Positions 8,674 through 23,752 of a DNA stretch of 31,734 bases are shown here, one piece after another (the first letter of the stretch is position 1; every line of letters begins with the position of its first letter). The notes beneath the pieces were generated by a model. The model had not been told where the DNA came from and ran no database searches. It was given only the letters and a program-made list of their open reading frames with translations. Made by a program: the position numbers and the translations under genes. This DNA comes from a virus. The stretch lies in the IMG/VR virus record IMGVR_UViG_3300047554_000144, positions 1 to 31,734 of that record; one strand, 5' to 3'.

Positions 8674-8753
8674 AGAAGCACACGAAGGTCTACCTAAAGG
8701 GGATGGGCTATGATACAACCGATACATATTGGAACAAATGTAATAATATGTAG
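8670..8753 (+). pseudogene. Severed 5' end of the packaging HNH gene
   Basis: ATG 8670 (ATGA overlap with the glycosyltransferase stop) opens a 27-residue frame, [18 protein letters not shown], then unrelated residues to TAG 8751-8753. The first 18 residues match the start of the HNH gene at 9242 at 16 positions (start codons ATG and TTG counted as a mismatch). The DNA of the two copies is only about 69% identical, with almost every third codon position different. It is the original start of the HNH gene, cut off by insertion of the homing endonuclease. Confidence 0.7.
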
Positions 8754-8763
8754 TTATTTAGGT

Positions 8764-9270
8764 ATGGAGGAGATTTGGAAAGCCATACCTGAACTTGATG
8801 GCAAATACGAGTGCAGCAATATGGGTAATGTACGCAGAGTCAATAAAGACCCAAGATGCGAAAAATACAAAATGCTCAAGCTGCAAAAAACAAAGGATGG
8901 GTACATTTCAGTAAACCCAACCACGTCATTTCGCAAAAGGGTACATCGCCTCGTTGCTGAATTGTTTATACCCAATCCGAGCAACAAGCCATTCGTCAAT
9001 CACAAGAATTTAGACAAGCGAGATAACAGGGCATCAAACCTTGAGTGGGTAACCGCATCAGAGAACTCAATTCACGCTATGCACAATGGAAAGCTCGGAA
9101 GGATGTCATATACGATTGTCAGCGATGATGGTCTTCAAACATTCTCAACCGCTAAAGATTTAGCCAAGCACCTCAACGAGTGCTATTCTTGCGTTGCTGC
9201 TAAAATCAAAAAGCAAGGATTCTATAAAAACTATAAGGCAATTGAAAAAACATACAAAAGTTTATCTTGA
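8764..9270 (+). CDS. Free-standing HNH homing endonuclease (NUMOD4-HNH)
   Basis: 168 residues from ATG 8764. Residues 2-45 ([20 protein letters not shown]) match NUMOD4. Residues 60-103 are the HNH domain ([33 protein letters not shown]). The rest (about 117-165) looks like a NUMOD1-type DNA-binding tail ([12 protein letters not shown]). It would nick or cut a recognition site and copy its own gene into uninserted relatives. It sits between a severed gene start (8670) and the rebuilt HNH gene (9242), and its last 29 bases are shared with that gene in another frame. Confidence 0.88.
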
Positions 9271-9505
9271 TGGAATGGGTTACGATGTAACCGACTTCAT
9301 TTGTTGCGAGGTATGCCAAGCGCAGGCGAATGCGGTGCATCATATCCGACCAAGAGGCATGGGTGGAAGCAAGACACGAGATAACATAGAGAATCTTATG
9401 GCACTATGTCAGTCCTGTCATCACGAAGCAGACTTTGGAACAAAGCTATCAGAGGAGTATCTATCTGAAGTTCACAACCACCACCTGTCAAAGCGGGTTA
9501 TTTAG
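9242..9505 (+). CDS. HNH endonuclease next to terminase, packaging type
   Basis: 87 residues from TTG 9242, chosen because the resulting start ([15 protein letters not shown]) matches the severed start at 8670. Zinc-finger-type HNH: CCEVC at 21-25, [12 protein letters not shown] with His33-His34, [14 protein letters not shown] with Cys56, Cys59 and His60-61. HNH proteins of this kind beside the terminase genes assist DNA cleavage during packaging in HK97-like phages. Its start has been rebuilt by the inserted homing endonuclease gene. Whether the TTG start is efficient is not known. Confidence 0.75.
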
Positions 9506-9527: not shown

Positions 9528-9827
9528 ATGCCATTTGAAAAAGGAGTAAGCGGCAACCCAGCGGGCAAACCAAAGGGAGCAGCAAACAAAACGACCAACA
9601 AAATACGTGAGGCATTCCAAAACCTCATTGAAGCCAATCTTGAGAATATGACCCTTTGGCTCACGCAGGTTGCTGCCGATGATCCGAAGGGCGCCCTTGA
9701 CCTACTGAACAAGATGGCAGAGTACACGACACCCAAGCTCGCACGGGTGGAGAACTCCCACGAAGCAGCAGATGAACTCACCCAAATCAAAGTAGAGATT
9801 GTCCGTACTCCAAGTCAAGACAAGTGA
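9528..9827 (+). CDS. Terminase small subunit-like protein (DUF5681-like N-terminus)
   Basis: 99 residues. The start MPFEKGVSGNPAGKPKGAAN is the FxxGxSGNPxGRPKG pattern of DUF5681, common in proteins just before phage terminase. A helical segment (NKIREAFQNLIEANLENMTL) and an acidic-basic end follow. It overlaps the large subunit gene by 29 bases. The expected role is recognising viral DNA for packaging. Assignment rests on position plus the N-terminal motif; no clear helix-turn-helix is visible. Confidence 0.65.
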   Translation: MPFEKGVSGNPAGKPKGAANKTTNKIREAFQNLIEANLENMTLWLTQVAADDPKGALDLLNKMAEYTTPKLARVENSHEAADELTQIKVEIVRTPSQDK

Positions 9828-10959
9828 ACTCTTTGAGAAGAACTACACCGCACCCACACGGATAGTAGTCAATCAAGGCGGTTCTCGTTCTGGTAAGACC
9901 TACTCCATCTTGCAGATGCTTATTGTCATCGCAATGCAAGAGAAGGGTAAGGTCTTCTCTATTGTGCGTAAGTCACTCCCATCGCTCAAGATGACCGCAT
10001 ACCGTGACTTCTTTGAGATACTCCGAAATATGGAGTTGTACGATGAGGCTCGCCATAACAAGAGCGACTATACATACACGCTCAACGGAAACCTCTTTGA
10101 GTTCATTTCGCTTGACCAACCGCAGAAGAAACGTGGAGCAAGACGTGACTACCTATTCTGCAACGAGGCCAACGAGCTTTCTTGGGAGGACTTCTTTCAG
10201 CTCCTCGTTCGTACCACAGGCAAGATATGGATTGACTACAACCCATCAGATGCGTTCCACTGGATATACGACAGGCTACTAACTCGTGATGACGTAACGT
10301 ACATACAAAGTACCTACAAAGACAATCCCTTTCTTGATGCCTCCATCGTAGCAGAGATTGAACGCCTCGCAACAACCGATGAAGACTACTGGCGCATCTA
10401 CGGCTTGGGTGAGCGTGGTATGAGCCGTGCCACCATCTTCCAATTCGGGATGAACGAGATACCAGCTGATGCGACATTGCTCGCCTACGGAATGGACTTC
10501 GGCTACACCAACGACCCGACCTCGCTTGTAGCGGTGTACAAGTCAGGGGATAACCTGTACGCTGATGAACTCATCTACCAAACGGGGCTAACCAACCCCG
10601 ACATCAGCAACCGACTGAAAGACCTAAACATTGACAGGCGCACAGAGGTATACGCTGACTCTGCTGAACCCAAATCTATTGAGGAGCTGCATCGTATGGG
10701 ATGGAATATAAAACCCACGCAGAAGGGCGCAGATAGCGTTATAGTGGGTATTGACGTGCTGAAGCGACACAAGCTATTCGTTACCCCACGCAGCAGCAAC
10801 CTAATCAAAGAGATGCAGAACTACAAATGGGTAGAGGATAAGAACGGAAACCTCTTAAACAAACCCATAGATGCATTCAACCACGCCATAGATGCAATGC
10901 GCTACGCAACATACAACAAGCTATCCAAGCCAAACTACGGCAGGTATGCCATACGTTAA
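9799..10959 (+). CDS. Terminase large subunit (packaging ATPase/nuclease)
   Basis: 386 residues from TTG 9799; no ATG exists in frame near the N-terminus. Walker A GGSRSGKT at 27-34, Walker B YLFCNEANE around 118-126, and a coupling segment WIDYNPSD. The RNase H-like nuclease part has Asp233 (GMDFGYTNDP), Asp287 (VYADSAEP) and Asp365 (HAIDAMRYA). All key residues are present, so it should be active. It pumps DNA into the prohead and cuts it. Short but within range for phage TerL. Confidence 0.92.
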   Translation: MSVLQVKTSELFEKNYTAPTRIVVNQGGSRSGKTYSILQMLIVIAMQEKGKVFSIVRKSLPSLKMTAYRDFFEILRNMELYDEARHNKSDYTYTLNGNLFEFISLDQPQKKRGARRDYLFCNEANELSWEDFFQLLVRTTGKIWIDYNPSDAFHWIYDRLLTRDDVTYIQSTYKDNPFLDASIVAEIERLATTDEDYWRIYGLGERGMSRATIFQFGMNEIPADATLLAYGMDFGYTNDPTSLVAVYKSGDNLYADELIYQTGLTNPDISNRLKDLNIDRRTEVYADSAEPKSIEELHRMGWNIKPTQKGADSVIVGIDVLKRHKLFVTPRSSNLIKEMQNYKWVEDKNGNLLNKPIDAFNHAIDAMRYATYNKLSKPNYGRYAIR

Positions 10960-10980
10960 TTTTAAAAGGTTATTTTATTG

Positions 10981-11697
10981 ATGGAACTAAAGGTCAATGT
11001 GCCCACCACCTTGAGCGAAATTACGCTTGAGCAATACCAACGCTTCGTTAAGTTAGAAGGCGATGAGGAGTTCCTTACCCACAAGATGCTGGAGATATTC
11101 TGCGGCTTGCCTCTTGCTGACTTGCCCAACGTACGTGTAAAGGATGTGAGTCACGTAACGAGCCACATCTACAAGATGCTCAACGAGAAGCCCAAGCTCA
11201 AGCCTACGTTCACGATTGGTAAACAGGAGTTCGGGTTTATCCCTGAGATAGACAATATCACCTACGGTGAGTTCATTGACCTTGACACCTACATCCAAGA
11301 CATCCAAAACCTACACAATACGATGGCGGTATTGTACCGACCCATCACCAAGCAAGTAGGCGATAGATACGTGATAGAGCCATACGAATCAGCAAGCAAG
11401 TACGCAGGGCTGATGAAGCAAGCTCCGATGGATGTGGTAATGGCAGCATCGCTTTTTTTTTATCGTTTAGGGAACGAGTTGTTGCAAGCTACCCTGACCT
11501 ATTTGGAGAAGGAGAATCAGAAAACGAGTTCAGCAGAGAAGGGCAATTCGCCAAGCGATGGGGATGGTACTCTACCATCTATCAGCTCGCTCAAGGAGAT
11601 ATTAGAAGGTTTGGAGGAGTCACTCAACTGGAGCTACACGAGTGCCTTCAGTTCCTCACCTTTGAAAAGCAAAAGCAAGAAGTTGAAAGCGACTTAA
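10981..11697 (+). CDS. Probable tail assembly chaperone, frame-0 product
   Basis: 238 residues from ATG 10981 (TTG 10978 possible). The N-terminal two thirds look like a folded helical protein: EITLEQYQRFVKLEGDEEFL, YGEFIDLDTYIQDIQNLHNT. A T9 run at 11453-11461 codes LFF. After it the frame-0 tail becomes Ser/Lys-rich and low in complexity (SSPLKSKSKKLKAT), whereas the -1 frame stays open and protein-like to 11717. This is the layout of lambda G/GT-type tail chaperones. Position: after terminase, at the head of the tail genes. The role is inferred from the frameshift and context. Confidence 0.6.
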   Translation: MELKVNVPTTLSEITLEQYQRFVKLEGDEEFLTHKMLEIFCGLPLADLPNVRVKDVSHVTSHIYKMLNEKPKLKPTFTIGKQEFGFIPEIDNITYGEFIDLDTYIQDIQNLHNTMAVLYRPITKQVGDRYVIEPYESASKYAGLMKQAPMDVVMAASLFFYRLGNELLQATLTYLEKENQKTSSAEKGNSPSDGDGTLPSISSLKEILEGLEESLNWSYTSAFSSSPLKSKSKKLKAT

Positions 11698-11717
11698 TTA
11701 AAAAATCAATACGATGA
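11460..11717 (+). CDS. Candidate -1 frameshift extension of the tail chaperone gene
   Basis: The slippery heptamer T TTT TTT lies in correct phase at 11454-11460. A -1 slip there reads on from codon 11460 for 85 codons without a stop. The product includes NEFSREGQFAKRWGWYSTIY, AQGDIRRFGG and FLTFEKQKQEVESDL, and ends at TGA 11715-11717. That stop makes an ATGA overlap with the next gene (11714), the junction style typical of this genome, whereas the frame-0 stop leaves a gap. Alternative: one T missing from the run in the assembly. Either way the shifted frame looks genuine. Confidence 0.55.
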   Translation, partial: LSFRERVVASYPDLFGEGESENEFSREGQFAKRWGWYSTIYQLAQGDIRRFGGVTQLELHECLQFLTFEKQKQEVESDLIKKSIR

Positions 11718-12181
11718 GGCAGTTTTACGACATCACCACCAAGCTCAAGGACACGCTGCTGGCGCATAGCCAAGTAAACGTGGTTACCACAGGTGACCTA
11801 TTTGACGTTGACCTGAACAAGCAGACCATCTTCCCCTTGAGCCATATCATCGTAAACCAAGCGACCTTTGAAGGTCAGGTGGTACGCATGAGCGTAAGCC
11901 TCGTTTGTATGGATGTGGTTGATGACACCAAAGAAGACCCTAGAGCGCAACCAGAGCCGTTCTACGGCACTTCTAACGTGCAAGACATACTCAACACCCA
12001 ACTCGCAGTAATAAACGATGTGGTGCAAGAATTACGCAGAGGCACTTTGTACTCTGACCTGTACCAATTAGATGGTAACCCAACCTGCACTCCGTTCTTG
12101 GAGCGATTTGAGAACTTGCTCGCTGGATGGACTGCTACGTTTGATGTGTTGCTTGCTAACACCGAGATAAGCGTTTGCTAA
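11714..12181 (+). CDS. Conserved tail or neck protein, 155 aa
   Basis: MRQFYDITTKLKDTLLAHSQ, then VTTGDLFDVDLNKQTIFPLS, SVSLVCMDVVDDTKED, and DILNTQLAVINDVVQELRRG. An alpha/beta protein of tail-terminator size: an opening helix, then strands around a region describing sample shape, as in tail completion proteins. I recall it next to the gp10-like gene in Bacteroidetes phages. Start is fixed by the ATGA overlap with the frameshift product; the end overlaps the next gene by one base (TAATG). Role inferred from position and size. Confidence 0.55.
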   Translation: MRQFYDITTKLKDTLLAHSQVNVVTTGDLFDVDLNKQTIFPLSHIIVNQATFEGQVVRMSVSLVCMDVVDDTKEDPRAQPEPFYGTSNVQDILNTQLAVINDVVQELRRGTLYSDLYQLDGNPTCTPFLERFENLLAGWTATFDVLLANTEISVC

Positions 12182-12714
12182 TGACACGGCAGGAGCGCAT
12201 ACAGGTAGTGCTTGACAAGTTCGGAAAGTACGTGGTGCAACAGGCGAGAGCAAACCTCACACGCCAACGCAAGAACGTATCTAAAGAACTATACGACTCT
12301 ATTCAATGGACTGCTGAGGCATCCAAGAGTGGAGAGTCATTTACCGCAGCTCTATCAATGCTTGACTACGGTCAGTTCCAAGACAAGGGTGTAAAGGGAA
12401 AGAGCAGCACGTATGGCTCGGCACAAGGTAGCCCATTCCGCTTCGGTACGGGCACAGGAAAGAAGGGCGGACTTACTGAGGCGATGAAGAAGTGGGTAGC
12501 CGCAAGGCGCATTCAGTTCCGCCAAGAGAATGGTAGGTTTATGAGCTACGATAGCACGGCATTCCTTATCGCAAGAAGCATATACCAAAAGGGAATACCT
12601 GCATCGTTCTTCTATTCACGACCATTTAACCTCGCATACCAAAAGCTGCCTGCTGAGTTAGTAGAGGCATTTGAATTGACTCCTGATGAATTCAAAGAAT
12701 TTCTAAAGAAATGA
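12181..12714 (+). CDS. HK97 gp10-like neck/tail completion protein
   Basis: 177 residues from ATG 12181 (TTG 12175 possible). It begins MTRQERIQVVLDKFGKYVVQ, then SIQWTAEASKSGESFTAALS, MLDYGQFQDKGVKGK, FYSRPFNLAYQKLP. The pattern of an N-terminal helix, small strands and a YGxFxDxGVKG turn with a late RPF segment fits gp10-like proteins that join head and tail. It is followed by the main tail gene with a 4-base overlap. Confidence 0.6.
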   Translation: MTRQERIQVVLDKFGKYVVQQARANLTRQRKNVSKELYDSIQWTAEASKSGESFTAALSMLDYGQFQDKGVKGKSSTYGSAQGSPFRFGTGTGKKGGLTEAMKKWVAARRIQFRQENGRFMSYDSTAFLIARSIYQKGIPASFFYSRPFNLAYQKLPAELVEAFELTPDEFKEFLKK

Positions 12715-13976
12715 GTACACCTGTATCAGCGACCCCAGCATCTATTGCTACGGCTCGCAGCCCCATCTTCATCACGGGCAAGAACAACACGCTACCCAAT
12801 GACTCGCTGGATGCGATGAGCGTGAACATCAGCTCGTACACGGGAGCGCAGACCCCTGTAAGCGGAGCAACAACCTACACGCTATCTAAGAACTACTCCA
12901 TCAACGAGGTCATCAACTTTGAGGTATCTGACCTTATCCGTGAGAAGTTTCAGCATCCATTCGGCAAGGCATTCATCACCGCACCAAGCGCATCAGAAAC
13001 AGGCGAAGCAGTATGGGTACGCAGAACAGGTGATTGGACTTATTCTGATAACGGAGCAGCCCCTACTACGGGTGTGATTGGTACGGTTTACTTCTTGGCT
13101 CTTGATGGCTATAAGTCATTGGGTGAGCTTCAGAACGCAGGCGTTACTCAAGCGGGACTTGTTACCTCACGACCCTTCCAAGTGCTTGCAGGCAACTCGC
13201 AGAGCCTTGCGGTATCGTACAACACCTACTCAGGCGTTAATGGCTTTACGATTGAGATTAATGGCGTAGAATACTGGTTCTCGCTAAAGGATGAACTCGG
13301 ATGGGCTAACACGACCACGAACTCTACGCAGATGGTCATCTACATACCGAGTGGGGTAACCAACGTAGCAACATTCTTGGGCGTAACGCCAACCGATGAC
13401 TACACCATAAATCTACTTGTAAACAACGAGTGCATCAGCTACAATGACCGAGTGAAGGCTGATGGCGGAACGGTAGAGGCACTTGACTGCCTATGCGAAG
13501 CGGTAGATGCTCTTGGCGGAAACGATGACAAGGTAGCCTACGACTTTGAGGTGGTATGTGAGCCTAAGTACGACCCATACCTCATTCAGTTCGTAAACAA
13601 GTACGGGGTATCTGACTACATCACGTTCTTCAAGAAGTCAACCGAGCAGGGTAACTTCACCCAAGACCAATACCAAAAGAGCATCTATGCCGATGCATAT
13701 ACGGATGTCAACTACGTGAACGGAAAATACCAATCGTTCAATATCAATTCTCGCAACACGCTAACGCTTAACACAGGCTTCGTGGATGAGTCGTATGGTG
13801 CTATTATGGAGGAGATACTGATGAGCGAGAAGGTAGCCGTATACGAGGATGGTCAATGGGTAGCAGTTCAGCCTAATCGTGGAAGCATTGACTACCAGAA
13901 GTCGGTAAACGACAAGACCATTAACTACACGATGAGCTTCACCTATGCGTTTGACCAACGGATGCTTGTACGATGA
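12711..13976 (+). CDS. Large structural protein, probable tail component, 421 aa
   Basis: Rich in Thr, Ser, Asn and Gly with alternating strands: SINEVINFEVSDLIREKFQH near the start, a middle segment PFQVLAGNSQSLAVSYNTYS, and the motif DRVKADGGTVEALDCL at about residue 247, shared with proteins at 21049 and 24319. The last part (NTLTLNTGFVDESYGAIMEE, INYTMSFTYAFDQRMLVR) is beta-rich. There is no collagen-like or enzymatic motif. It lies between the gp10-like gene and the tail tip-like gene and overlaps both by 4 bases. A tail or baseplate structural role is likely; the exact part is unknown. Confidence 0.55.
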   Translation: MSTPVSATPASIATARSPIFITGKNNTLPNDSLDAMSVNISSYTGAQTPVSGATTYTLSKNYSINEVINFEVSDLIREKFQHPFGKAFITAPSASETGEAVWVRRTGDWTYSDNGAAPTTGVIGTVYFLALDGYKSLGELQNAGVTQAGLVTSRPFQVLAGNSQSLAVSYNTYSGVNGFTIEINGVEYWFSLKDELGWANTTTNSTQMVIYIPSGVTNVATFLGVTPTDDYTINLLVNNECISYNDRVKADGGTVEALDCLCEAVDALGGNDDKVAYDFEVVCEPKYDPYLIQFVNKYGVSDYITFFKKSTEQGNFTQDQYQKSIYADAYTDVNYVNGKYQSFNINSRNTLTLNTGFVDESYGAIMEEILMSEKVAVYEDGQWVAVQPNRGSIDYQKSVNDKTINYTMSFTYAFDQRMLVR

Positions 13977-15985
13977 ATAAGGTTGATATTTACGTCAATG
14001 GTCAACGCCTTGACATCTTCCAAGATGAGGAGATAACCATCAACCTAAGCGTGCAGAATGTGCAGGACATCAGCAAGGTGTTCACGGACTTTACGCAAGG
14101 ATTCACCGTACCTGCTACCGCAACAAACAACGCCATCTTCGGATACTACTACCGAACGGATATCAATGGCTCATTTGATGGTCGGCTACGCCAGCCAGCA
14201 AGCATTGAAATCAACTCCCTACCATTCCGCACAGGGGTAGTGGAGATTGAGAGCGTTCAGCTCAAAGGGACAGAGCCGTATGCTTATACCATCACTTTCT
14301 ATGGCGATGTGGTAAGCCTCAGCGACCTATTCGGCGATGACTACCTGTACGACTTAAACTTCAGCGCATACAATCACGCTTACACGGATAACGCAATCTT
14401 TGAACGCTTTAGCACGGAGTATGACAATGCGTTCTTTTATCCGTTGATGAGTCCTGTAAAGAATTGGGTTTACAACTCAAGTTCAAGTGAACACAGGGAT
14501 GAGAACATTGCTTGGCATAGCGGGAGCGAAAATCACGGAATCCACTACTACGAGCTGAAGCCTGCGATGAAGGTCTATGCTATATTGGATGCAATAGAAG
14601 CAAAATACGGCATAACCTTCACGGGGTCATTCCTATCCGCTAACCCATTTGTAGACCTATCGCTATGGCTGCACCGCTTTGAGGGATATATGTTCTCAAG
14701 TGGCAACGACATTGAATGGAGGCTGATTAACTTCAACCGAAATAAGGGTGGGGGAACTCAATTTAATCTTTCTACTGATACGTGGACAGTTCAAGCAGAT
14801 GCTCTTTATAATTTAGAAATTGACATAGCAAATGCTGATGTTCCTTATGAAATTGGAGTGTTCACAAATGGAGTTTTATATCAATCAAAACTTCAATCTG
14901 CTCATCCTTCTTCTACGGTTACAAGCACATTTATTGCTTTAGGTATTCCAGCTGGAACCGAAGTAAAGCTTTACATAAGACCTCAAGCTGCGACTCAATT
15001 AAACTATCAGGTAACAGATTATAATGGATACAACACTACAACATTAGTAAGTCAATTTGATGTAGACCAAACGCTTGCAGCGGTGTACACGTTTACGGTG
15101 GTTGTTACTGACCTAATGCCTGAGATTAAGGTAAAGGACTTCCTTGCTGGTATCTTGAAGATGTACAATATGGTCATCGTGCCTACGACATCTACATCGT
15201 TCCTGCTTCAGCCTCTTGAGGCGTGGTACGCAGCAGGAAGCGATAAAGACTACCAGACCTACTTTGACATCACGGAGTATGCGGTAAACCGCCCACCATT
15301 GTACCGAGAGATTGAGTTCAAATACCAAGACACGGAGCAGATACTCGGCTTCCAATATCAGAAGACCAACAATACAGGCTTTGGTGACCTTCGTAGCTTC
15401 TTCAATTTTGATGGTGAGGAGTTCATTGTGGAAGTGCCGTTTGAGTGTCCATTGTTTGAGAGGCTAACTGACCTTGACACGGGTGCGCTAACAAACGTAC
15501 TTGTTTACAAGAGCATCACGGAGAATACAAACGAGGATGGCACATTTAACAAATACTTGGGTTCGCCTGTTGTTTTCTATGCGAGCTATGGTGACTACAA
15601 CATCAGCGCAAATCCTGTTGCGTTTGTAAACTCAGATAACACCACAAGCCGACAGGTGGATGCCTGCTGGTACGCCAATACCTCAAACCTACCAACAAGC
15701 GCAGGAGCATCGTACTCTACGTGCTTTGGTGCAGACATTGACCCATATCACCTCCAGAGCGTAAGCCGTAGCCTATACAATGAATACTGGAGCGACTACA
15801 TCACCGACCTATACAACGTGAAGCGTAGGCTCTTGCAAGTAGATGCGGTGTTGCCTCTTGGTACTATCCTCACGCTGAACCTTCAGAACGGGGTGATATG
15901 GAACAACAATAAATACATCGTTAACAACGTGAGCCTGAATATGACCACAGGCAAAGCAACATTTGAACTCCTTAACGTAGTATGA
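13973..15985 (+). CDS. Tail tip/baseplate-like structural protein, 670 aa
   Basis: Starts MNKVDIYVNGQRLDIFQDEE, a beta-rich opening, then DISKVFTDFTQGFTVPAT, LPFRTGVVEIESVQLKG and TITFYGDVVSLSDLFGDDYL. The end (LQVDAVLPLGTILTLNLQNG) is also beta-rich. I recall the opening from Bacteroidetes phage tail proteins. Bases about 14740-15070 (residues 256-366) use clearly more AT-rich codons than the rest, suggesting a swapped-in beta-sandwich domain (TDTWTVQADALYNLEIDI). It is the longest gene here and lies upstream of the tape measure. Confidence 0.6.
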   Translation: MNKVDIYVNGQRLDIFQDEEITINLSVQNVQDISKVFTDFTQGFTVPATATNNAIFGYYYRTDINGSFDGRLRQPASIEINSLPFRTGVVEIESVQLKGTEPYAYTITFYGDVVSLSDLFGDDYLYDLNFSAYNHAYTDNAIFERFSTEYDNAFFYPLMSPVKNWVYNSSSSEHRDENIAWHSGSENHGIHYYELKPAMKVYAILDAIEAKYGITFTGSFLSANPFVDLSLWLHRFEGYMFSSGNDIEWRLINFNRNKGGGTQFNLSTDTWTVQADALYNLEIDIANADVPYEIGVFTNGVLYQSKLQSAHPSSTVTSTFIALGIPAGTEVKLYIRPQAATQLNYQVTDYNGYNTTTLVSQFDVDQTLAAVYTFTVVVTDLMPEIKVKDFLAGILKMYNMVIVPTTSTSFLLQPLEAWYAAGSDKDYQTYFDITEYAVNRPPLYREIEFKYQDTEQILGFQYQKTNNTGFGDLRSFFNFDGEEFIVEVPFECPLFERLTDLDTGALTNVLVYKSITENTNEDGTFNKYLGSPVVFYASYGDYNISANPVAFVNSDNTTSRQVDACWYANTSNLPTSAGASYSTCFGADIDPYHLQSVSRSLYNEYWSDYITDLYNVKRRLLQVDAVLPLGTILTLNLQNGVIWNNNKYIVNNVSLNMTTGKATFELLNVV

Positions 15986-16134
15986 AGCAGACGTATTTAG
16001 GTTATTTGATTGAACTCCTTAACTCGGATGAGTGGATTGGTGCAGGCGAGAATGTAGAAATCGCCAAAGGCAAGCACAAACTACCCGAAGGATGGAACGA
16101 ATATATTAAGTTGCAATGGCGGCAGTTGAAGTAA
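15982..16134 (+). CDS. Small protein before the tape measure, 50 aa
   Basis: ATG 15982 gives an ATGA overlap with the tail gene; TAA is at 16132-16134, 19 bases into the tape measure gene. Begins MKQTYLGYLIELLNSDEWIG and ends YIKLQWRQLK. Basic at the end. No motif; tight overlaps on both sides support it as a real gene. Confidence 0.55.
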   Translation: MKQTYLGYLIELLNSDEWIGAGENVEIAKGKHKLPEGWNEYIKLQWRQLK

Positions 16135-17654
16135 TTGAGATTAAAGGTGATGCCTCCTCCGCTATTGCGGCTCTGAAGCAGGTAGGCATAGAGGCCAACA
16201 AGACCACACAGGCCGCACAAAAGAGCAACGAGGCTATCAATGACGGCCTTGAGGCATTAGACAAGCAGACCAACGGTGCGGTATCAGCATTCCGCAGCTT
16301 ACAGGGTGGCATCAAGAGTGCTATCTCTGCATTCACTACGCTCAAGGGTGCTATCATCGCTACGGGTCTTGGTGCGCTATTGGTAGCCGTAACATCGCTC
16401 GTTACCTACTTCAAAGAAACCGAACGAGGCGGAGATAAGCTCGCTGAGGTGATGGGCTTTCTGGGAGCAGCAGTCAAGGTAGTAATAGACCGAGTAATTG
16501 GCTTAGGAGAGGCTTTGGTTAAGCTATTTGAGGGAGACTTCAAAGGAGCGATTCAAGGCGTTACAGGAGCATTCAAAGGATTGGGCGATGAGATCGCCAG
16601 AGAGAGCAAGCTTGGTCGTGAACTCGCTAAGCAGCTCAACGATGTAGAGGATGCTGAACGTGCGCTTATCGCTCAACGTGCTATCGCCAACAAGCAGATT
16701 GCAGAGGCTCGCCTTATTGCCGATGACGTTAACAAGACCACCGAGCAGCGCATCGCTGCGGTTAAACGTGCAGGCGCTATTGAAGAGCGTGTTGCTCGCC
16801 AAGAGCTTGCCGTACAACGTCAGCGTTTGTCTATCCTTCAGCAGCAGGCTGCTATGGGAGAGGTTACCGAAGAGGGACTTACTCGTATTGAAGAGGCACG
16901 TGCAAGAATCTCCGAGCTTGAGCAGGCAAACATTATGCGCAGGAAGCGTTTGCAGACCGAGACCATCGGATTGCTAAACGAAGAAATCGCAAAGACCAAA
17001 GAGCTGGAGAAGGCTCGCCAAGATGCCGAGAAAGCACGCTTTGAGAATAGCGAGAAGAAGTTTAAGAAGTACGTTGATGATTCGGTAAATGCAGCCAATA
17101 AAGGCGCAGGACAGGTAGCAAGAGTCGGACAGTTCTACACAGAGGCTATTGCCGAAGGAACGCAAAAGACATCAGCAGACTTACAGGACTACATCAACTT
17201 CACGCTTGCAAACCTTGATGCGGTAAGCCAAGCGATTAGTGGCTTCGCTGCGCTCGCAGGAGAGAACACGAAACTCAGCAAGGCACTTGCCATATCGCAG
17301 ATTGTCATTGACACGTATATGGGTGCTACCAAAGCACTCGGTGCGTACCCGCCTCCGTTTGGCGCTATCGCAGCAGCAGGCGTTATCGCAGGGGGTATCG
17401 CCAACTTGAACAAGGTAAAGTCAACGCAGATACCTACATCTGCAAGTGCTGCGCCTACGGCTACCATCTCTGCTCCTACCGCAGCATCACAACCACCGCA
17501 GTTCAACATCGTTGGGCAGAGTGGCGTGAACCAATTAGCCCAGAGCATCGGTGGTCAGTTTGACCGACCCCTACGTGCGTATGTGGTGAGCCAAGACATT
17601 AGTACTGCGCAGCAGCTACAACGCCAACGAGTAAGAACCGCAACATTCGGATAA
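16116..17654 (+). CDS. Tail tape measure protein, 512 aa
   Basis: N-terminal Ala-rich helices (SSAIAALKQVGIEANKTTQA), hydrophobic helices near 78-100 (GAIIATGLGALLVAVTSLVT), then a long coiled-coil (about 175-330: ARQELAVQRQRLSILQQQ, KELEKARQDAEKARFE). A second hydrophobic Gly/Ala-rich part follows at about 400-435 (FGAIAAAGVIAGGIANLNK), then a Pro/Thr-rich tail. This is typical of tape measure proteins, which set tail length and help DNA entry. With about 0.15 nm per residue, the tail would be roughly 75 nm. The length implies a siphovirus with a short tail. Confidence 0.8.
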   Translation: MAAVEVIEIKGDASSAIAALKQVGIEANKTTQAAQKSNEAINDGLEALDKQTNGAVSAFRSLQGGIKSAISAFTTLKGAIIATGLGALLVAVTSLVTYFKETERGGDKLAEVMGFLGAAVKVVIDRVIGLGEALVKLFEGDFKGAIQGVTGAFKGLGDEIARESKLGRELAKQLNDVEDAERALIAQRAIANKQIAEARLIADDVNKTTEQRIAAVKRAGAIEERVARQELAVQRQRLSILQQQAAMGEVTEEGLTRIEEARARISELEQANIMRRKRLQTETIGLLNEEIAKTKELEKARQDAEKARFENSEKKFKKYVDDSVNAANKGAGQVARVGQFYTEAIAEGTQKTSADLQDYINFTLANLDAVSQAISGFAALAGENTKLSKALAISQIVIDTYMGATKALGAYPPPFGAIAAAGVIAGGIANLNKVKSTQIPTSASAAPTATISAPTAASQPPQFNIVGQSGVNQLAQSIGGQFDRPLRAYVVSQDISTAQQLQRQRVRTATFG

Positions 17655-18586
17655 TGAAACTTATTGAACTAATCTTAGATGAAACGATGGCACTCACGGG
17701 GATTGATGCCATCAGCCTCGTAGAGCATCCCGCTATTGAGGAGGACTTTATTGCGCTAAAGTCAGAGCGTGTGGAGTTCGCTGCACAGGATAACGAGAAG
17801 CGCATCCTAATGGGAGCAGCACTCGTACCCAACAAACCCATCTACCGAGTGAATGGTGAGGAGGAATTCTACGTTTACTTCAGCCAAGAGACCATCCGCA
17901 AAGCGAGTGAGATGTTCTTCCAAAAGGCAAACCAGAACAACGCTACGCTTGAACACGAGGTAGAGATTAACGGACTCACGGTTGTAGAGTCTTGGATTAT
18001 TGAAGACGAAGTCCACGACAAGAGCAAGAAGTACGGCTTTGAGTTGCCTGTTGGTACGTGGATGGTTTCTATGAAAGTCAACAACCCAGAGATTTGGGAT
18101 GGCTTCGTAAAGACTGGTCGTGTCAAGGGCTTCTCTATTGAAGGCTACTTCGTTGACAAGATGAACTTCGCCAAGCAGGAGATGGAGCGTATTGAGGAGC
18201 AAGAGGCGGCTCTCCTATTGTCGCAGATTGTAGCCATCATCAAAAAGGATGGTCGCAAGAAGTCAGGCAAGCGCATGGAGCTGGAATCCTACTCTGACTA
18301 CCCACAAGCAGTACGCAATAACGCCAAGCGTGGTATCGTGTTGAACGAGAAGAATGGCAACAAGTGCGCTACGCCTGTTGGTAAGGTACGTGCTCAGCAG
18401 CTCGCACAAGGCAAACCTGTGAGCGTAGAGACCATCACTCGGATGTACTCGTACCTATCAAGAGCCGAAGAGTACTACGATGAAAACGACACCACCGCTT
18501 GCGGCACTATCAGCTACCTGCTATGGGGAGGGCTTGCTGCAAAGCGTTGGGCAGAATCTAAACTTAAAGAATTGGGCAAATTATGA
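17654..18586 (+). CDS. XkdF-like prohead protease with extra C-terminal domain
   Basis: 310 residues. Residues about 1-170 fit the XkdF-type head maturation protease: ISLVEHPAIEEDF, GAALVPNKPIYRVNG, ATLEHEVEI with His101, and VKGFSIEGYF with Ser161 as likely catalytic pair. Residues about 205-310 are a separate domain (YPQAVRNNAKRG, NGNKCATPVGKVRAQQLAQG, MYSYLSRAEEYY, ACGTISYLLWGG) that I know from other phage head genes without known function. It lies just before the scaffold and capsid genes, as expected for a protease that trims scaffold and capsid. Confidence 0.7.
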   Translation: MKLIELILDETMALTGIDAISLVEHPAIEEDFIALKSERVEFAAQDNEKRILMGAALVPNKPIYRVNGEEEFYVYFSQETIRKASEMFFQKANQNNATLEHEVEINGLTVVESWIIEDEVHDKSKKYGFELPVGTWMVSMKVNNPEIWDGFVKTGRVKGFSIEGYFVDKMNFAKQEMERIEEQEAALLLSQIVAIIKKDGRKKSGKRMELESYSDYPQAVRNNAKRGIVLNEKNGNKCATPVGKVRAQQLAQGKPVSVETITRMYSYLSRAEEYYDENDTTACGTISYLLWGGLAAKRWAESKLKELGKL

Positions 18587-18744
18587 TCCGACCACAAAAG
18601 CTACCCGTAGCCTCACCAAGAGGCGGCAACAGAGGATGCCTCTGCAAGGACAATACCTACTCACGCAAGTGCTGCGATGGCTCTCTTCCTGCTCAAGGGA
18701 TAGGCTCATTGACTGGTCAAGGTGATGTAGAACTCAACCCATAA
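18583..18744 (+). CDS. Small Cys-rich protein, 53 aa (CLCKDNTYSRKCC type)
   Basis: ATG 18583 overlaps the protease stop (ATGA); TAA is at 18742-18744. The centre reads RGGNRGCLCKDNTYSRKCC then DGSLPAQGIGS. Four cysteines in CxC and CC pairs may bind a metal. I recall the CLCKDGTYSxxCCDGS pattern from Bacteroidetes phage head regions. Function unknown. Confidence 0.6.
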   Translation: MIRPQKLPVASPRGGNRGCLCKDNTYSRKCCDGSLPAQGIGSLTGQGDVELNP

Positions 18745-18783
18745 AATGTAACAAACCAACAACCCAAAGTGAATTAGTTAGAT

Positions 18784-19377
18784 ATGAAAGCAAATAATAT
18801 CCTTAACCGCATCCTTGCCGAACTTAGCTCCATTCGTGAGGTTAAGTTTGAGCAAATGACCCTTGAGAACGGTGCTGTTCTTGAGGCTGAAGTATTTGAA
18901 GCAGGAAACGAGGTATTTGTCGTTAGTGGCGAAGACCGTGTTCCTGCTCCTGTTGGTGAGCATCTCCTTGCTGATGGCCGTGTATTGGTTATCGCTGAGG
19001 AGGGACTGATTGCCGAAATTAAAGAGAAAGCTGAAGAAGTAGAGGAGAAGGTAGAGATTGAAGTTGAGGCTTCAGTTGAAGAACCTGCTACCGAGCTTGC
19101 TGAGGTTGAAGTAAAAGAAGAAGCTCCTGCCGTTGCAGATGTTGTAGCCAAAGTGCTAGAAGAAATCGCAATGATGCGTGAGGAGATGAAAGCAATGCGT
19201 GAGGAGATGGGCGGCTACGCCAAGAAGGAAGAGATGGCTGCCGTTAAGGCTGAGCTGTCTGCTGCACCTGCTGCTAAGCCCATCAAACACAACCCCGAAA
19301 CAAAGCAAGCCAACAAGGTTGAATTTAATCGTTCTCCAAAGGCGATTGACCGAGTCCTTGCACGTCTTAATAAATAA
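18784..19377 (+). CDS. Probable scaffold or head-assembly protein, 197 aa
   Basis: Strongly acidic with a predicted coiled middle: EEGLIAEIKEKAEEVEEKVE, VLEEIAMMREEMKAMREEMG. It has a Pro/Lys linker (APAAKPIKHNPETKQ) and a basic, Arg-rich end (KAIDRVLARLNK), like scaffolds whose basic end docks on the capsid protein. The N-terminal part has strands (ENGAVLEAEVFEAGNEVFVV). It sits directly before the major capsid gene. No decoration or enzymatic motif. Role inferred from composition and position. Confidence 0.65.
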   Translation: MKANNILNRILAELSSIREVKFEQMTLENGAVLEAEVFEAGNEVFVVSGEDRVPAPVGEHLLADGRVLVIAEEGLIAEIKEKAEEVEEKVEIEVEASVEEPATELAEVEVKEEAPAVADVVAKVLEEIAMMREEMKAMREEMGGYAKKEEMAAVKAELSAAPAAKPIKHNPETKQANKVEFNRSPKAIDRVLARLNK

Positions 19378-19389
19378 TAAAACCCGAAA

Positions 19390-20316
19390 ATGGCTACGAC
19401 CACTTCAATCACTACTTCGTACGCTGGACAATTTGCCAGCAAGTACATCTCTGCTGCTCTTCTGAGCGCAGACACCCTTGACAAGGGACTCGTTGAGATT
19501 CTTCCCAACGTAAACTTCAAAACCACCCTGCAAAAGGTCAACACCGACTCTATCGTTCGTGACGCTACTTGCGACTTTGACGCTACGTCTACGCTGACCT
19601 TGACTGACCGTGTTCTTGAGGTTGAGCCTTTCCAAGTTAACCTTCAGCTTTGTAAGAAAGACTACTACGATTCTTGGATCGGTGGTCAGATGGGCTTCTC
19701 TGCTTACGATAGCATCCCTGCTTCTTTCGCTGACTTCTTGATTGCTCACGTTGCTGCTAAGACTGCCCAGAAGATTGAGCAGAACATCTGGAACGGTAAC
19801 GCTGCTTCAGCTGGTGAGTTCTCAGGCTTCCTTTCTTTGATGACTGCTGACTCTGACGTTGTTGACGTAACTGCTACGACTGTAACGGCTGCTAACGTAA
19901 TCACTGAGCTTGGTAAGGTTGTTGATGCTATCCCTGCTGCCCTTTACGGCAAGGAGGACTTGACCATCTACGTACCGCAGAACGTAGCTAAGGCTTACGT
20001 ACGTGCGCTTGGTGGCTTTGGTGCTTCAGGTCTTGGTGCTAACGGTCTTGACAACAAAGGCACGATGTGGTACGGTGACCAACCTCTGTACTTTGACGGA
20101 ATCCGTGTATCTATGGTTAACGGCCTTCCTTCTAACAAGATGGTTGCTGCTCAGTCTTCTAACCTGTTCTTCGGTACGGGTCTGCTGAACGAGCGTAACG
20201 AGGTTCGTGTCCTTGATATGGCTGACCTTGACGGCTCTGACAACATCCGTGTTATCTTGCGCTTCTTCGCAGGTGTACAATACGGTATCGGTTCTGACGT
20301 AGTTCTCTACTCTTAA
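19390..20316 (+). CDS. Major capsid protein, HK97-type
   Basis: 308 residues. Features: an early TTSYAGQFASKYISAALLSA helix, ILPNVNFKTTLQKV, ASFADFLIAHVAAKTAQKIE (spine helix), TIYVPQNVAKAYVRALGG, YFDGIRVSMVNGLPSNKMVA, NIRVILRFFAGVQYGIGSDV. These are the alternating helix and strand parts of HK97-fold capsids of Bacteroidetes phages. Codon choice is unusually uniform (GCT, TTC, AAC, CGT), as expected for the most highly made protein. It follows the scaffold and ends in a strong terminator. Confidence 0.85.
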   Translation: MATTTSITTSYAGQFASKYISAALLSADTLDKGLVEILPNVNFKTTLQKVNTDSIVRDATCDFDATSTLTLTDRVLEVEPFQVNLQLCKKDYYDSWIGGQMGFSAYDSIPASFADFLIAHVAAKTAQKIEQNIWNGNAASAGEFSGFLSLMTADSDVVDVTATTVTAANVITELGKVVDAIPAALYGKEDLTIYVPQNVAKAYVRALGGFGASGLGANGLDNKGTMWYGDQPLYFDGIRVSMVNGLPSNKMVAAQSSNLFFGTGLLNERNEVRVLDMADLDGSDNIRVILRFFAGVQYGIGSDVVLYS

Positions 20317-20341
20317 TCCGAGTACATAGTTTAAACCACGA

Positions 20342-20373
20342 GGGGGTGTGGGTTCTGCCCCGCCCCCTTTTTT
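20342..20373 (+). terminator. Terminator after the major capsid gene
   Basis: G-rich arm GGGGGTGTGGG (20342-20352), short loop, GCCCCGCCCCC (20357-20367), then TTTTTT (20368-20373). The stem has five G-C pairs at its base, one wobble and one mismatch. It would lower read-through from the capsid gene. Confidence 0.8.
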
Positions 20374-20390
20374 AATTCTAAACAATAACA

Positions 20391-20939
20391 ATGGCTTGCG
20401 ATTTAACAAAAGGGCGTGCAGTACCGTGTAAAGACGTAGTAGGTGGCATTTATGCCGTTTACTTTGTAGACTTCGGTGACTTGGGCACTATCACTTTAAC
20501 TAACGATGAGGTTACCGACATTAGCGGTACGTTCTCTGCTTACCAGTACTTGGTAAAAGGAAACTCATCTTTTGAGCAGACCTTCAACTCAAGCCGTGAG
20601 AATGGTACTACCTTCTTCACGCAGACGTTGAACCTGACTTTGACTAAACTCACCAAAGAGGACAACAAGGAGCTTAAGCTCTTGGCCTACGGTCGCCCTT
20701 ACGTTATCGTACAGGACTACAACGGCAACGCCTTCTTGATGGGTAAGAACTACGGAGCAGAGGTAACTGGCGGTACTATCGTAACGGGTGCTGCTATGGG
20801 TGACCTTTCAGGTTACACGCTTGTAATGGAGGCTCAGGAGCAACTGCCTGCTAACTTCATCGCAGGTGCTACGACTGCAAATCCGTTTGCAGGACTTGCT
20901 TCTGCTAACGACACGATTGTTGTAGGTAGCAATTCTTAA
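20391..20939 (+). CDS. Tail tube-like structural protein, 182 aa
   Basis: Beta-rich: MACDLTKGRAVPCKDVVGGI, GTITLTNDEVTDISGTFSAY, SSFEQTFNSSRENGTTFFTQ, TQTLNLTLTKLTKEDNKELK, YVIVQDYNGNAFLMGKNYGA. Alternating strands with a long central hairpin suit a tail tube or similar ring-forming protein. It has the same uniform codon choice as the capsid gene, so it is probably abundant. It is set off by terminators on both sides. Role inferred; it could instead be a capsid accessory. Confidence 0.55.
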   Translation: MACDLTKGRAVPCKDVVGGIYAVYFVDFGDLGTITLTNDEVTDISGTFSAYQYLVKGNSSFEQTFNSSRENGTTFFTQTLNLTLTKLTKEDNKELKLLAYGRPYVIVQDYNGNAFLMGKNYGAEVTGGTIVTGAAMGDLSGYTLVMEAQEQLPANFIAGATTANPFAGLASANDTIVVGSNS

Positions 20940-20949
20940 CGTATATTTG
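20920..20949 (+). promoter_or_regulatory. Bacteroidetes-type promoter before a terminator
   Basis: TTG (20920-20922), 19-bp spacer, TATATTTG (20942-20949): same elements and spacing as the promoter at 2204. It overlaps the end of the upstream gene. The first downstream feature is a terminator at 20990-21014, so it would make a transcript of about 60 bases unless polymerase reads through. Confidence 0.65.
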
Positions 20950-20952
20950 TAC

Positions 20953-21014
20953 TGCGCCACTGAACGGAGTGGAGCTCTTGATGGAGAGAGGGGGGCGAAA
21001 GCCTCCCTTTTTTT
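20953..21014 (+). ncRNA. Candidate small RNA between promoter and terminator
   Basis: From about 7 bases after the -7 box to the end of the T-run there are three hairpins and no gene. They are CCACT/AGTGG (20957-20961, 20968-20972), CTCT/AGAG (20975-20978, 20985-20988) and the terminator stem. Length about 60 bases. It could act as a regulator, or the block may be an attenuator for the genes from 21049 on. The exact transcription start is inferred. Confidence 0.45.
20990..21014 (+). terminator. Terminator with GAAA loop
   Basis: GGGGGGC (20990-20996), loop GAAA, GCCTCCC (21001-21007), then seven T (21008-21014). Seven pairs including one G-T wobble. A strong Rho-independent terminator. Confidence 0.85.
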
Positions 21015-21048
21015 ATACAAAAGGTTTGCGTGAGGTTATTTACTTGAG

Positions 21049-21483
21049 ATGCATATTCTACAAGTATCGGCTTCGCCTCAAACAATTACCATCATCCCTC
21101 GTGAGTTTGTTTTCTCTCAAGAGGATTTGGATTTTTACTTTGAGCGTGTGTTGCTTGATGATGGTACGCTTGAGGGCGTATTATGCGTTGAGAGCGCATT
21201 AAACAACCTTGATGGTGTTACGCTACTCTTGACCGATGAAAGCACCAACACGACTGCTACAATCAATCCTACGATTGAGGAGGCTAACGGCTTTATGTAC
21301 CTGACCTCTACCTTTACATTGGTCAACAACCGATTCTACGGACTGAAGGTATTTTACGATGGCGATTTAATCTACCGAGATAGGGTCTTCGTAACGCCAC
21401 AAACCGACTACGCCAAATTCACGGTAAACCAAAATGTCTACACGGAAGAAACAAGCTACGACAATGACTACATCATCATCTAA
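21049..21483 (+). CDS. Conserved structural-region protein, 144 aa
   Basis: MHILQVSASPQTITIIPREF, then LDFYFERVLLDDGTLEGVLC, a strand-rich middle (SALNNLDGVTLLLTDESTNT) and RFYGLKVFYDGDLIYRDRVF. The segment ERVLLDDGTLEGVLCVESAL matches a motif repeated in genes 12711 and 24319. Probably a small beta-sandwich. It overlaps the portal gene by up to 50 bases. I recall it next to portals in Bacteroidetes phages; function unknown. Confidence 0.55.
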   Translation: MHILQVSASPQTITIIPREFVFSQEDLDFYFERVLLDDGTLEGVLCVESALNNLDGVTLLLTDESTNTTATINPTIEEANGFMYLTSTFTLVNNRFYGLKVFYDGDLIYRDRVFVTPQTDYAKFTVNQNVYTEETSYDNDYIII

Positions 21484-23227
21484 AGTCCACGTTGTAAACC
21501 TATCCTCTTACACCACGCCAAACATTAGCGAGGTGCAGGGTAAGGATTGGGTGCAATATGGCGATGACAATAACTACTTCCAGTACCTGATTGACCGATA
21601 CAACGGTTCACCAACCAATAACGCCCTAATCAATGGCGTAGTGGACTTCGTATACGGCAAGGGCTTGGATGCTACCAACTCGGCAAAGAATCCGAGTGAG
21701 TACGCAGCGATGAAGGGCTTGTTTAGCAAGGACTGCGTAAAGAAGCTGGTGGCTGACTACAAGATGATGGGTCAATGCGCCATTCAGGTAATCTACTCGC
21801 AAGACCACAATACCATCGTAGAGATTGAGCATATCCCCATTGAGACTTTGCGTGCTGAGAAGTGTAACGAGGATGGGGAGATTGAAGGGTACTACTACGC
21901 CAAGAGTTGGTCGGATGTTGCTTCACGTAAAGAAACGCCTGTACGCATCCCTGCGTTCGGCACAAGCCGTGAAGGATTGGAGATTCTCTACATCAAGCCC
22001 TACCGAGCAGGATTCTACTACTACTCACCAGTAGACTATCAAGGAGGATTGCCGTACGCAGAGCTGGAAGAGGAGATTGCAAACTTCCACATCAACAACA
22101 TTCAGAACGGCCTCAACCCTTCAATGCTCATCAACTTCAACAACGGAGTACCGAGCGAGGAGGAGCGTAGGGCTATTGAGATGCAGATTGCTAACAAGTT
22201 CAGCGGCACGAGCAACGCAGGAAAGTTCATCTTGGCGTTCAACGACAATGCTGAATCTAAAGCAACACTTGAGACAGTACAACTAAGTGATGCCCATAAC
22301 CAATATCAGTTCTTGTCCAACGAGGCAATGCAGAAGCTGATGGTGGCTCACCGCATCACTTCTCCGATGCTTATGGGCATCAAGGATAGCACAGGGCTGG
22401 GTAACAACGCAGATGAGCTTAAAACGGCTTCTATCCTGTTTGAGAACATCGTGATTAAGCCTATCCAAGAAACGCTGCTTGATGGCTTTGAGAAGATTCT
22501 CACGTACAACGACATCAACCTCAACCTGTACTTCAAAACGCTCCAGCCGCTTGAGTTCACGAGCGACATTGAAACGCCAATGGATGCTGAAACCCGTGAA
22601 GAAGAAACGGGAGTGAAGCTATCCAGCCAAGAGCCGAGCGATGAGCATTTTGATGAGGTCTTTGCTGCTTTGGAAGAAGTAGGCGAGGTCATCAACGAAG
22701 ATGAGTGGGAACTTGTAGATGAGCGACCCGTTGACTACGAGGCAGAGCAAGCGTTGAGCAAGTACGCATTCGCATCAACAGGCAGCGCATTCCCCAACGC
22801 TAAAAGCTCGCAGGATGGCGTAACCGAAGAAGGCCGCCAATACAAGGTGCGCTACGCTTACGCTCCGAACGCTACGAAGGCCAATAGCCGTGAGTTCTGC
22901 AAGAAGATGGTAGCAGCAAACAAGGTATACCGCAAGGAGGACATTGAGCGCATGGGAAGCCAAGCAGTCAACGCAGGATTCGGTGTAGCAGGAGCAGACA
23001 CGTACTCTATCTGGTTGTACAAGGGCGGAGCAAGATGCCACCACTTCTGGATGCGTAAGACGTACCTCGCAAAAGCCGAAGGAGTAACGCCTGATGTAGG
23101 TAACCCTAATGCAGAGGTAACGGTAAACCAAGCTCGCAGAGCAGGAGTAGATTTAGAGCAGAATCCTAAAGACGTAGCAATGCGCCCAACGGATATGCCA
23201 AACAATGGATTCGTAAACCCCCGATAA
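21434..23227 (+). CDS. Portal protein with C-terminal extra domain, 597 aa
   Basis: Residues about 15-400 fit a portal: KVHVVNLSSYTTPNISEVQG, NALINGVVDFVYGKG, the stem/clip region (IEHIPIETLRAEKCNEDGEI, GLNPSMLINFNNGVPSEEER) and the long crown helix near RITSPMLMGIKD, LKTASILFENIVIKPIQET. Residues about 440-597 are a different domain with many basic and aromatic residues (REFCKKMVAANKVYRKED, GGARCHHFWMRKTYLAKAEG), possibly a head-morphogenesis-type tail. ATG 21464 is an alternative start that cuts the upstream overlap to 20 bases. It forms the DNA entry ring at one vertex. Confidence 0.8.
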   Translation: MSTRKKQATTMTTSSSKVHVVNLSSYTTPNISEVQGKDWVQYGDDNNYFQYLIDRYNGSPTNNALINGVVDFVYGKGLDATNSAKNPSEYAAMKGLFSKDCVKKLVADYKMMGQCAIQVIYSQDHNTIVEIEHIPIETLRAEKCNEDGEIEGYYYAKSWSDVASRKETPVRIPAFGTSREGLEILYIKPYRAGFYYYSPVDYQGGLPYAELEEEIANFHINNIQNGLNPSMLINFNNGVPSEEERRAIEMQIANKFSGTSNAGKFILAFNDNAESKATLETVQLSDAHNQYQFLSNEAMQKLMVAHRITSPMLMGIKDSTGLGNNADELKTASILFENIVIKPIQETLLDGFEKILTYNDINLNLYFKTLQPLEFTSDIETPMDAETREEETGVKLSSQEPSDEHFDEVFAALEEVGEVINEDEWELVDERPVDYEAEQALSKYAFASTGSAFPNAKSSQDGVTEEGRQYKVRYAYAPNATKANSREFCKKMVAANKVYRKEDIERMGSQAVNAGFGVAGADTYSIWLYKGGARCHHFWMRKTYLAKAEGVTPDVGNPNAEVTVNQARRAGVDLEQNPKDVAMRPTDMPNNGFVNPR

Positions 23228-23752
23228 GTGAGAGAAGCAGGTGTATATAAGGTAACAAGCCCAAGTGGAAAGGTCTACATTGGGCAAGCATCCAATATAC
23301 ATAGGCGAATGATTGAGCATAAAAGTGATTCTAAAAAAATCATAAACAAATTCTACTCATCAATTAAGAAATACGGATTTGAAGCACATACGATTGAGGT
23401 ATTGTTTTTAAGTGATGTCCCGTATGAGCGAAACCGAATTGAACAATTCTACATTAACTATTACGATTCAATTAAAACAGGATTAAACCTAATTGATGTA
23501 ATTGGTCCTGTTCAATCATTTTCAGGAAAGAAACATACTCCCGAAGAAGTTGAACGAATCAAAGCCCGAATGAAAGGTGTAAATCCAACTTGGGCTATTG
23601 AAAAAATAAAGAAGCGTGTATTTTGCAGTTATCTCAATGAGGAGTTTGAATCAACTCGTGCTTGTGCTAAAGCGCTCGGAGTAAGTCAGGCACTTGTTTC
23701 AATGATGGCAAACGGAAAGACTACAAACAAATATAATATATCGTTTATATGA
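23228..23752 (+). CDS. GIY-YIG homing endonuclease
   Basis: 174 residues from GTG 23228, directly after the portal stop. GVYKVTSPSGKVYIGQASN (GIY-YIG core at residues 5-19), HRRMIEHKSD with the catalytic Arg, and a later IEQFYINYYDS with Glu. After it come NUMOD3-like KKHTPEEVERIKARMKG and a C-terminal helix-turn-helix (STRACAKALGVSQALVSMMA). It is markedly more AT-rich than the head genes around it, as expected for a recent arrival. Its TGA overlaps the ATG of the next gene, so it is fitted neatly between two head genes. Confidence 0.88.
   Translation: MREAGVYKVTSPSGKVYIGQASNIHRRMIEHKSDSKKIINKFYSSIKKYGFEAHTIEVLFLSDVPYERNRIEQFYINYYDSIKTGLNLIDVIGPVQSFSGKKHTPEEVERIKARMKGVNPTWAIEKIKKRVFCSYLNEEFESTRACAKALGVSQALVSMMANGKTTNKYNISFI

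Follow-up and report, generated by a model that had tools for sequence, protein, structure and literature searches.

Tail assembly chaperone pairs consist of a shared domain to which an optional helical domain, encoded in the -1 frame, can be added. In lambda (gpG/gpGT) and HK97, one gene supplies the shared N-terminal domain and a -1 shift leads into the added domain (PMC5009743). The P2 pair gpE/gpE+E' also depends on a -1 shift, which takes place at a T-rich sequence (GGTTTTTTG in the P2 sequence that was read), and carries a small helical domain. The locus described here has the layout of the lambda and HK97 genes and, like P2, a T-rich site and a small helical domain. It differs from lambda and HK97 in that its slippery site is a homopolymer of nine Ts (T9) and its frame-0 tail of 78 codons is under selection, whereas P2 has a six-T site and a short frame-0 tail. 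The gene follows that of the terminase, and more than 4 kb separate it from the tape measure gene downstream, while the chaperone genes of lambda, HK97 and P2 are close to theirs, directly before it in P2. Profile comparison (hhalign) with P2 gpE and with lambda and HK97 G was not significant.

A nearer counterpart was found in the isolated Nonlabens phage P12024L, whose genes 40 and 41 share a homologous N part (31% identity), the same T9 run with CTTTTTTTTTATCATTTAGGGAACGA at the same place and TTTAGGGAACGA, a WGWY domain in the -1 frame, and a position directly after the terminase gene. They differ in a frame-0 tail of only 25 codons and in being annotated as two separate hypothetical proteins. 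Gene 41 is the -1 frame continuation of gene 40, with its annotated start at an internal codon (locus L161, 8001-8695).

The window analyzed is the entire virus record of 31,734 nt, and its features at this locus are listed in the table. The T9 run is the sole homopolymer of at least eight bases in the window, as judged from all runs of identical bases; it closes the 160-residue frame-0 segment and is read in frame 0 as GCA TCG CTT TTT TTT TAT. The likely start of the frame-0 ORF is the ATG at 10981, and the listed ORF begins one codon before, at TTG 10978. A preliminary description of this DNA had noted an in-phase slippery heptamer in the nine-T run, an 85-codon open -1 frame ending in an ATGA overlap with the next gene (TGA 11715-11717), a frame-0 tail that stops earlier, two products of similar length, and a helical-looking -1 segment (RWGWYSTIY). 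All of these held on closer analysis; the products are 238 residues in frame 0 and about 245 with the -1 frame, and the -1 segment has a confident helical model.

Table. Features of the recoded locus and its neighbors in the 31,734-nt window
Feature	Position	Strand	Remark
Shared N-terminal domain, 160 aa, frame 0, PHROG 32199 (function unknown)	10981..11460	+	AlphaFold2 pLDDT 91
T9 recoding site with in-phase T_TTT_TTT (11454-11460)	11453..11461	+	8-11 T and heptamer in 375/375 distinct junctions
-1 frame C-terminal domain, 85 aa, WGWY motif, including TGA stop	11460..11717	+	Helical model, pLDDT 87
Alternative tail in frame 0 (78 codons, ends at TAA 11695-11697), dual coding with the -1 frame	11461..11697	+	
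Conserved TTTAGG past the run: -1 Phe-Arg, frame-0 Leu-Gly, third-frame TAG	11466..11471	+	
ATGA, overlap of -1 stop and next-gene start	11714..11717	+	ATG at this offset in 70 examined clusters
Next gene, 155 aa, PHROG 30964, conserved neighbor	11714..12181	+	Downstream in 101/108 clusters
Terminase large subunit, upstream neighbor	9799..10959	+	
Probable tape measure protein, the client expected for a tail chaperone	16116..17654	+	PHROG 3336, E 2.6e-10

Relatives were collected by scans with the N part, the -1 part and their alignments, all independent of the T run, and by one DNA pattern scan that depends on it. Six-frame profile searches were then used to pair the N part with the -1 part. 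The second part lies in the -1 frame in all 592 locus pairs, and every one of the 375 distinct junctions, which represent 121 clusters at 75% DNA identity, has T_TTT_TTT in phase. The run is nine Ts long in 363 of these junctions and ten in 10, with one junction each of eleven and eight, and the -1 domain is conserved as protein among the relatives. As far as sequence comparison can tell, the -1 recoding site is real and strongly conserved, and programmed -1 recoding at T9 is strongly supported. In one relative (L211, 3647-4127), the N-part match covers 481 bases, which is not a multiple of three and suggests an indel or sequence error inside it.

A tblastn search for single-frame relatives in isolates, using distant members as queries, returned only P12024L and P12024S. 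In a phylum sample of 395 bacterial genomes, the single match came from the centre genome itself, so this is mainly a virus family. Among the papers searched, none was found that reports this recoding for flavobacterial phages or for these genes.

The predicted structures of the two parts were compared with known and predicted proteins. The N and C models both find the same nine predicted viral proteins (226-267 residues) in the BFVD structure library, and the aligned lengths of N and C roughly sum to the whole protein; from the structure match and the lengths, these are probably single-chain relatives of both halves. One BFVD match is annotated as a tail assembly chaperone (E 0.15, TMq 0.50). 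Only low-scoring unrelated chains were obtained when the N model (Foldseek, VIA-align) and the C model (VIA-align) were searched against the PDB, which indicates neither a new fold nor the lack of one.

The preliminary description had proposed asking which C-terminus homologues conserve, and had held that conservation of the frame-0 tail and not of the -1 frame would speak against a shift. The -1 frame is kept over its full length, and the frame-0 tail is retained in part. Substitutions between relatives were counted in 121 pairs, each sequence being used once. Position 1 of the -1 codons, which is the frame-0 wobble position, takes 61% of substitutions in codons 4-8 and 43% in codons 8-12; past codon 60, the -1 wobble position takes 61-64%. 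With the -1 protein fixed and its codons redrawn from the usage of the N part, 31, 66, 16.5 and 73.5 frame-0 stops are expected in codons 0-4, 4-8, 16-24 and 40-48, and 0, 0, 0 and 9 are seen; this resampling ignores shared ancestry, for which the third frame serves as the control, and third-frame stops are not depleted in codons 0-16 or 40-64 and partially depleted in 16-40. Given the wobble bias and the stop depletion, the frame-0 tail is constrained as protein over roughly its first dozen codons and is kept open over about 45-50, with stops depleted to about codon 48. Judged from these patterns, selection also acts on the frame-0 tail, and the locus is dual coding, its two ends being similar in length.

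The third-frame TAG within the conserved TTTAGG was considered as a guard stop and rejected. In two relatives, L210 and L585, the frame-0 Leu is still encoded, as TTG, but the TAG is gone; the motif is therefore better explained by the encoded amino acids. A third-frame stop two codons on is present in 101 of the 121 clusters.

The best functional reading, drawn from architecture and gene context, is that the pair likely works like tail assembly chaperones. A G/GT-type tail chaperone had been suggested from the outset; the architecture, with its shared N part and optional -1 domain, agrees with that suggestion, while the profile comparisons with known chaperones are not significant. No convincing family emerged from sequence searches of Pfam, NCBIfam and the PDB. 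Weak matches to PHROG 166, which also recognizes P2 gpE, occur in 24 of 93 relatives (best E 2.2e-4), and there is one match to Phage_TAC_7 (E 0.0099). The terminase, recognized upstream in 65 of 110 clusters, is followed by the recoded gene and the 155-aa gene; then come a gene with weak similarity to HK97 gp10, two large genes without a recognized family, and the tape measure protein gene. The recoded gene is not between the tail tube and tape measure genes. The order over 9799-23227 is itself unusual, as the terminase, the tail-region genes and the tape measure gene precede an XkdF-like protease (17654), a probable capsid (19390) and a portal (21434).

We propose that most expression would read frame 0 through T9 to give the 238-residue protein with its own C-terminal tail, and that a fraction would slip one base back on T_TTT_TTT to give the longer protein with the helical WGWY domain. 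If the pair acts like lambda G/GT, its shared domain may bind to the tape measure protein, and its -1 domain may bring in the tail tube protein as the tail is assembled. We consider it highly probable that recoding at T9 yields two isoforms; we are less sure which machine slips and whether the pair acts as a chaperone. We infer from the sequences that both proteins are made, and likewise what is said here of their ratio.

A missing T in the assembly had been regarded beforehand as an equally good explanation, in which case the gene would be a single continuous frame. Homopolymers are prone to error and single-chain relatives seem to exist, but the -1 relation holds at run lengths of 8 to 11 in junctions from many metagenomes and in the isolate P12024L, and neither the depletion of frame-0 stops nor the substitutions at the frame-0 wobble position would be expected from a misread single frame; an assembly or sequencing error is thus extremely improbable. 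It is also conceivable that the recoding is real and that the protein pair serves another step, such as head or neck assembly. The position of the gene directly after the terminase would suit such a role, PHROG 32199 and 38404 are both without known function, and the profile comparison leaves chaperone homology unproven. Nevertheless, tail chaperones are typified by a shared domain that can be extended by a helical domain encoded in the -1 frame, the genes that come next are those of the tail region and the tape measure protein, and the weak PHROG 166 matches fall repeatedly on the same stretch of the N domain, so we consider a role outside tail assembly unlikely.

The slip itself could be made by the ribosome or by RNA polymerase. 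A stimulatory structure or an upstream SD is common at ribosomal sites and not obligatory. Neither was detected here: the consensus structure downstream reached -5.4 kcal/mol with zero compensatory pairs, single-sequence z values ranged from -0.94 to 0.92 (both for pseudoknot-free folds), and an SD-like motif precedes the slip site in 17 of 96 cases, which is not above the 2-26 at control offsets. Alternatively, RNA polymerase may add one U on T9 in some transcripts, after which ordinary translation would read the -1 frame, as in the unrelated Shigella gene mxiE, where transcriptional slippage places an extra U on a U run and joins two overlapping frames (PMC1088944). The run has at least nine Ts in 374 of the 375 junctions. 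A/T runs of nine are avoided in the genes of many bacteria (PMC1088944), and insertions during transcription climb exponentially with the length of such runs (PMC5574713). The run also stays at nine where the codon phase moves. In eight distinct relatives the codon before TTT TTT lacks a middle T (GGT, GCT and AGT in the four printed), and TTN follows in 8/8, restoring nine Ts, while TTN after TTT TTT is rare in the other junctions (7/367). However, these eight relatives probably represent few evolutionary events, protein constraint on both flanking codons could also fix the run at nine, and L585 has only eight Ts with the in-phase heptamer intact. The characterized tail-chaperone shifts are ribosomal (PMC5009743, PMC4493119), and by this precedent ribosomal slippage is slightly favored; as no stimulator was found and the run is fixed at nine despite phase moves, transcriptional slippage is nearly as likely, and we regard it as a serious possibility a little short of even.

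An SD-like motif before the gene start was seen in 0 of the cluster representatives tested, and its absence is consistent with a host that does not depend on SD. We tentatively suggest, with slightly more doubt than attaches to polymerase slippage in itself, that in a large phage lineage, probably of Bacteroidota, RNA-polymerase slippage on T9 may set the ratio of two tail-chaperone isoforms instead of ribosomal frameshifting, with both overlapping frames in use and a selected C-terminal tail on the frame-0 isoform.

Other features of the window were recorded separately. Between 4289 and 6746 there is an array of short ORFs of about 60-91 aa, most of them joined by AATGAAA stop-start overlaps; several start with MKTPMQELL, MKTAMQ or MKQTAVEW and end with FNTNEK, FNTNDK or similar. 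Their sequences suggest a set of tandem paralogues of unknown function, and the one that was searched had no Pfam match. Probable homing endonuclease genes lie at 8710-9270 (NUMOD4/HNH), 9194-9505 (HNH) and 23228-23752 (GIY-YIG).

In summary, devices of this kind are known, but the locus is unusual in its T9 homopolymer, in having two overlapping C-termini that are both selected and similar in length, and in its position beside the terminase. It provides a likely role for two families, PHROG 32199 and PHROG 38404; in the annotation of the hundreds of environmental phages concerned, the trans-frame protein is currently split or lost. It is an example of long dual coding past a recoding site. 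It also offers a natural, deeply sampled case in which experiment could separate ribosomal from transcriptional slippage.
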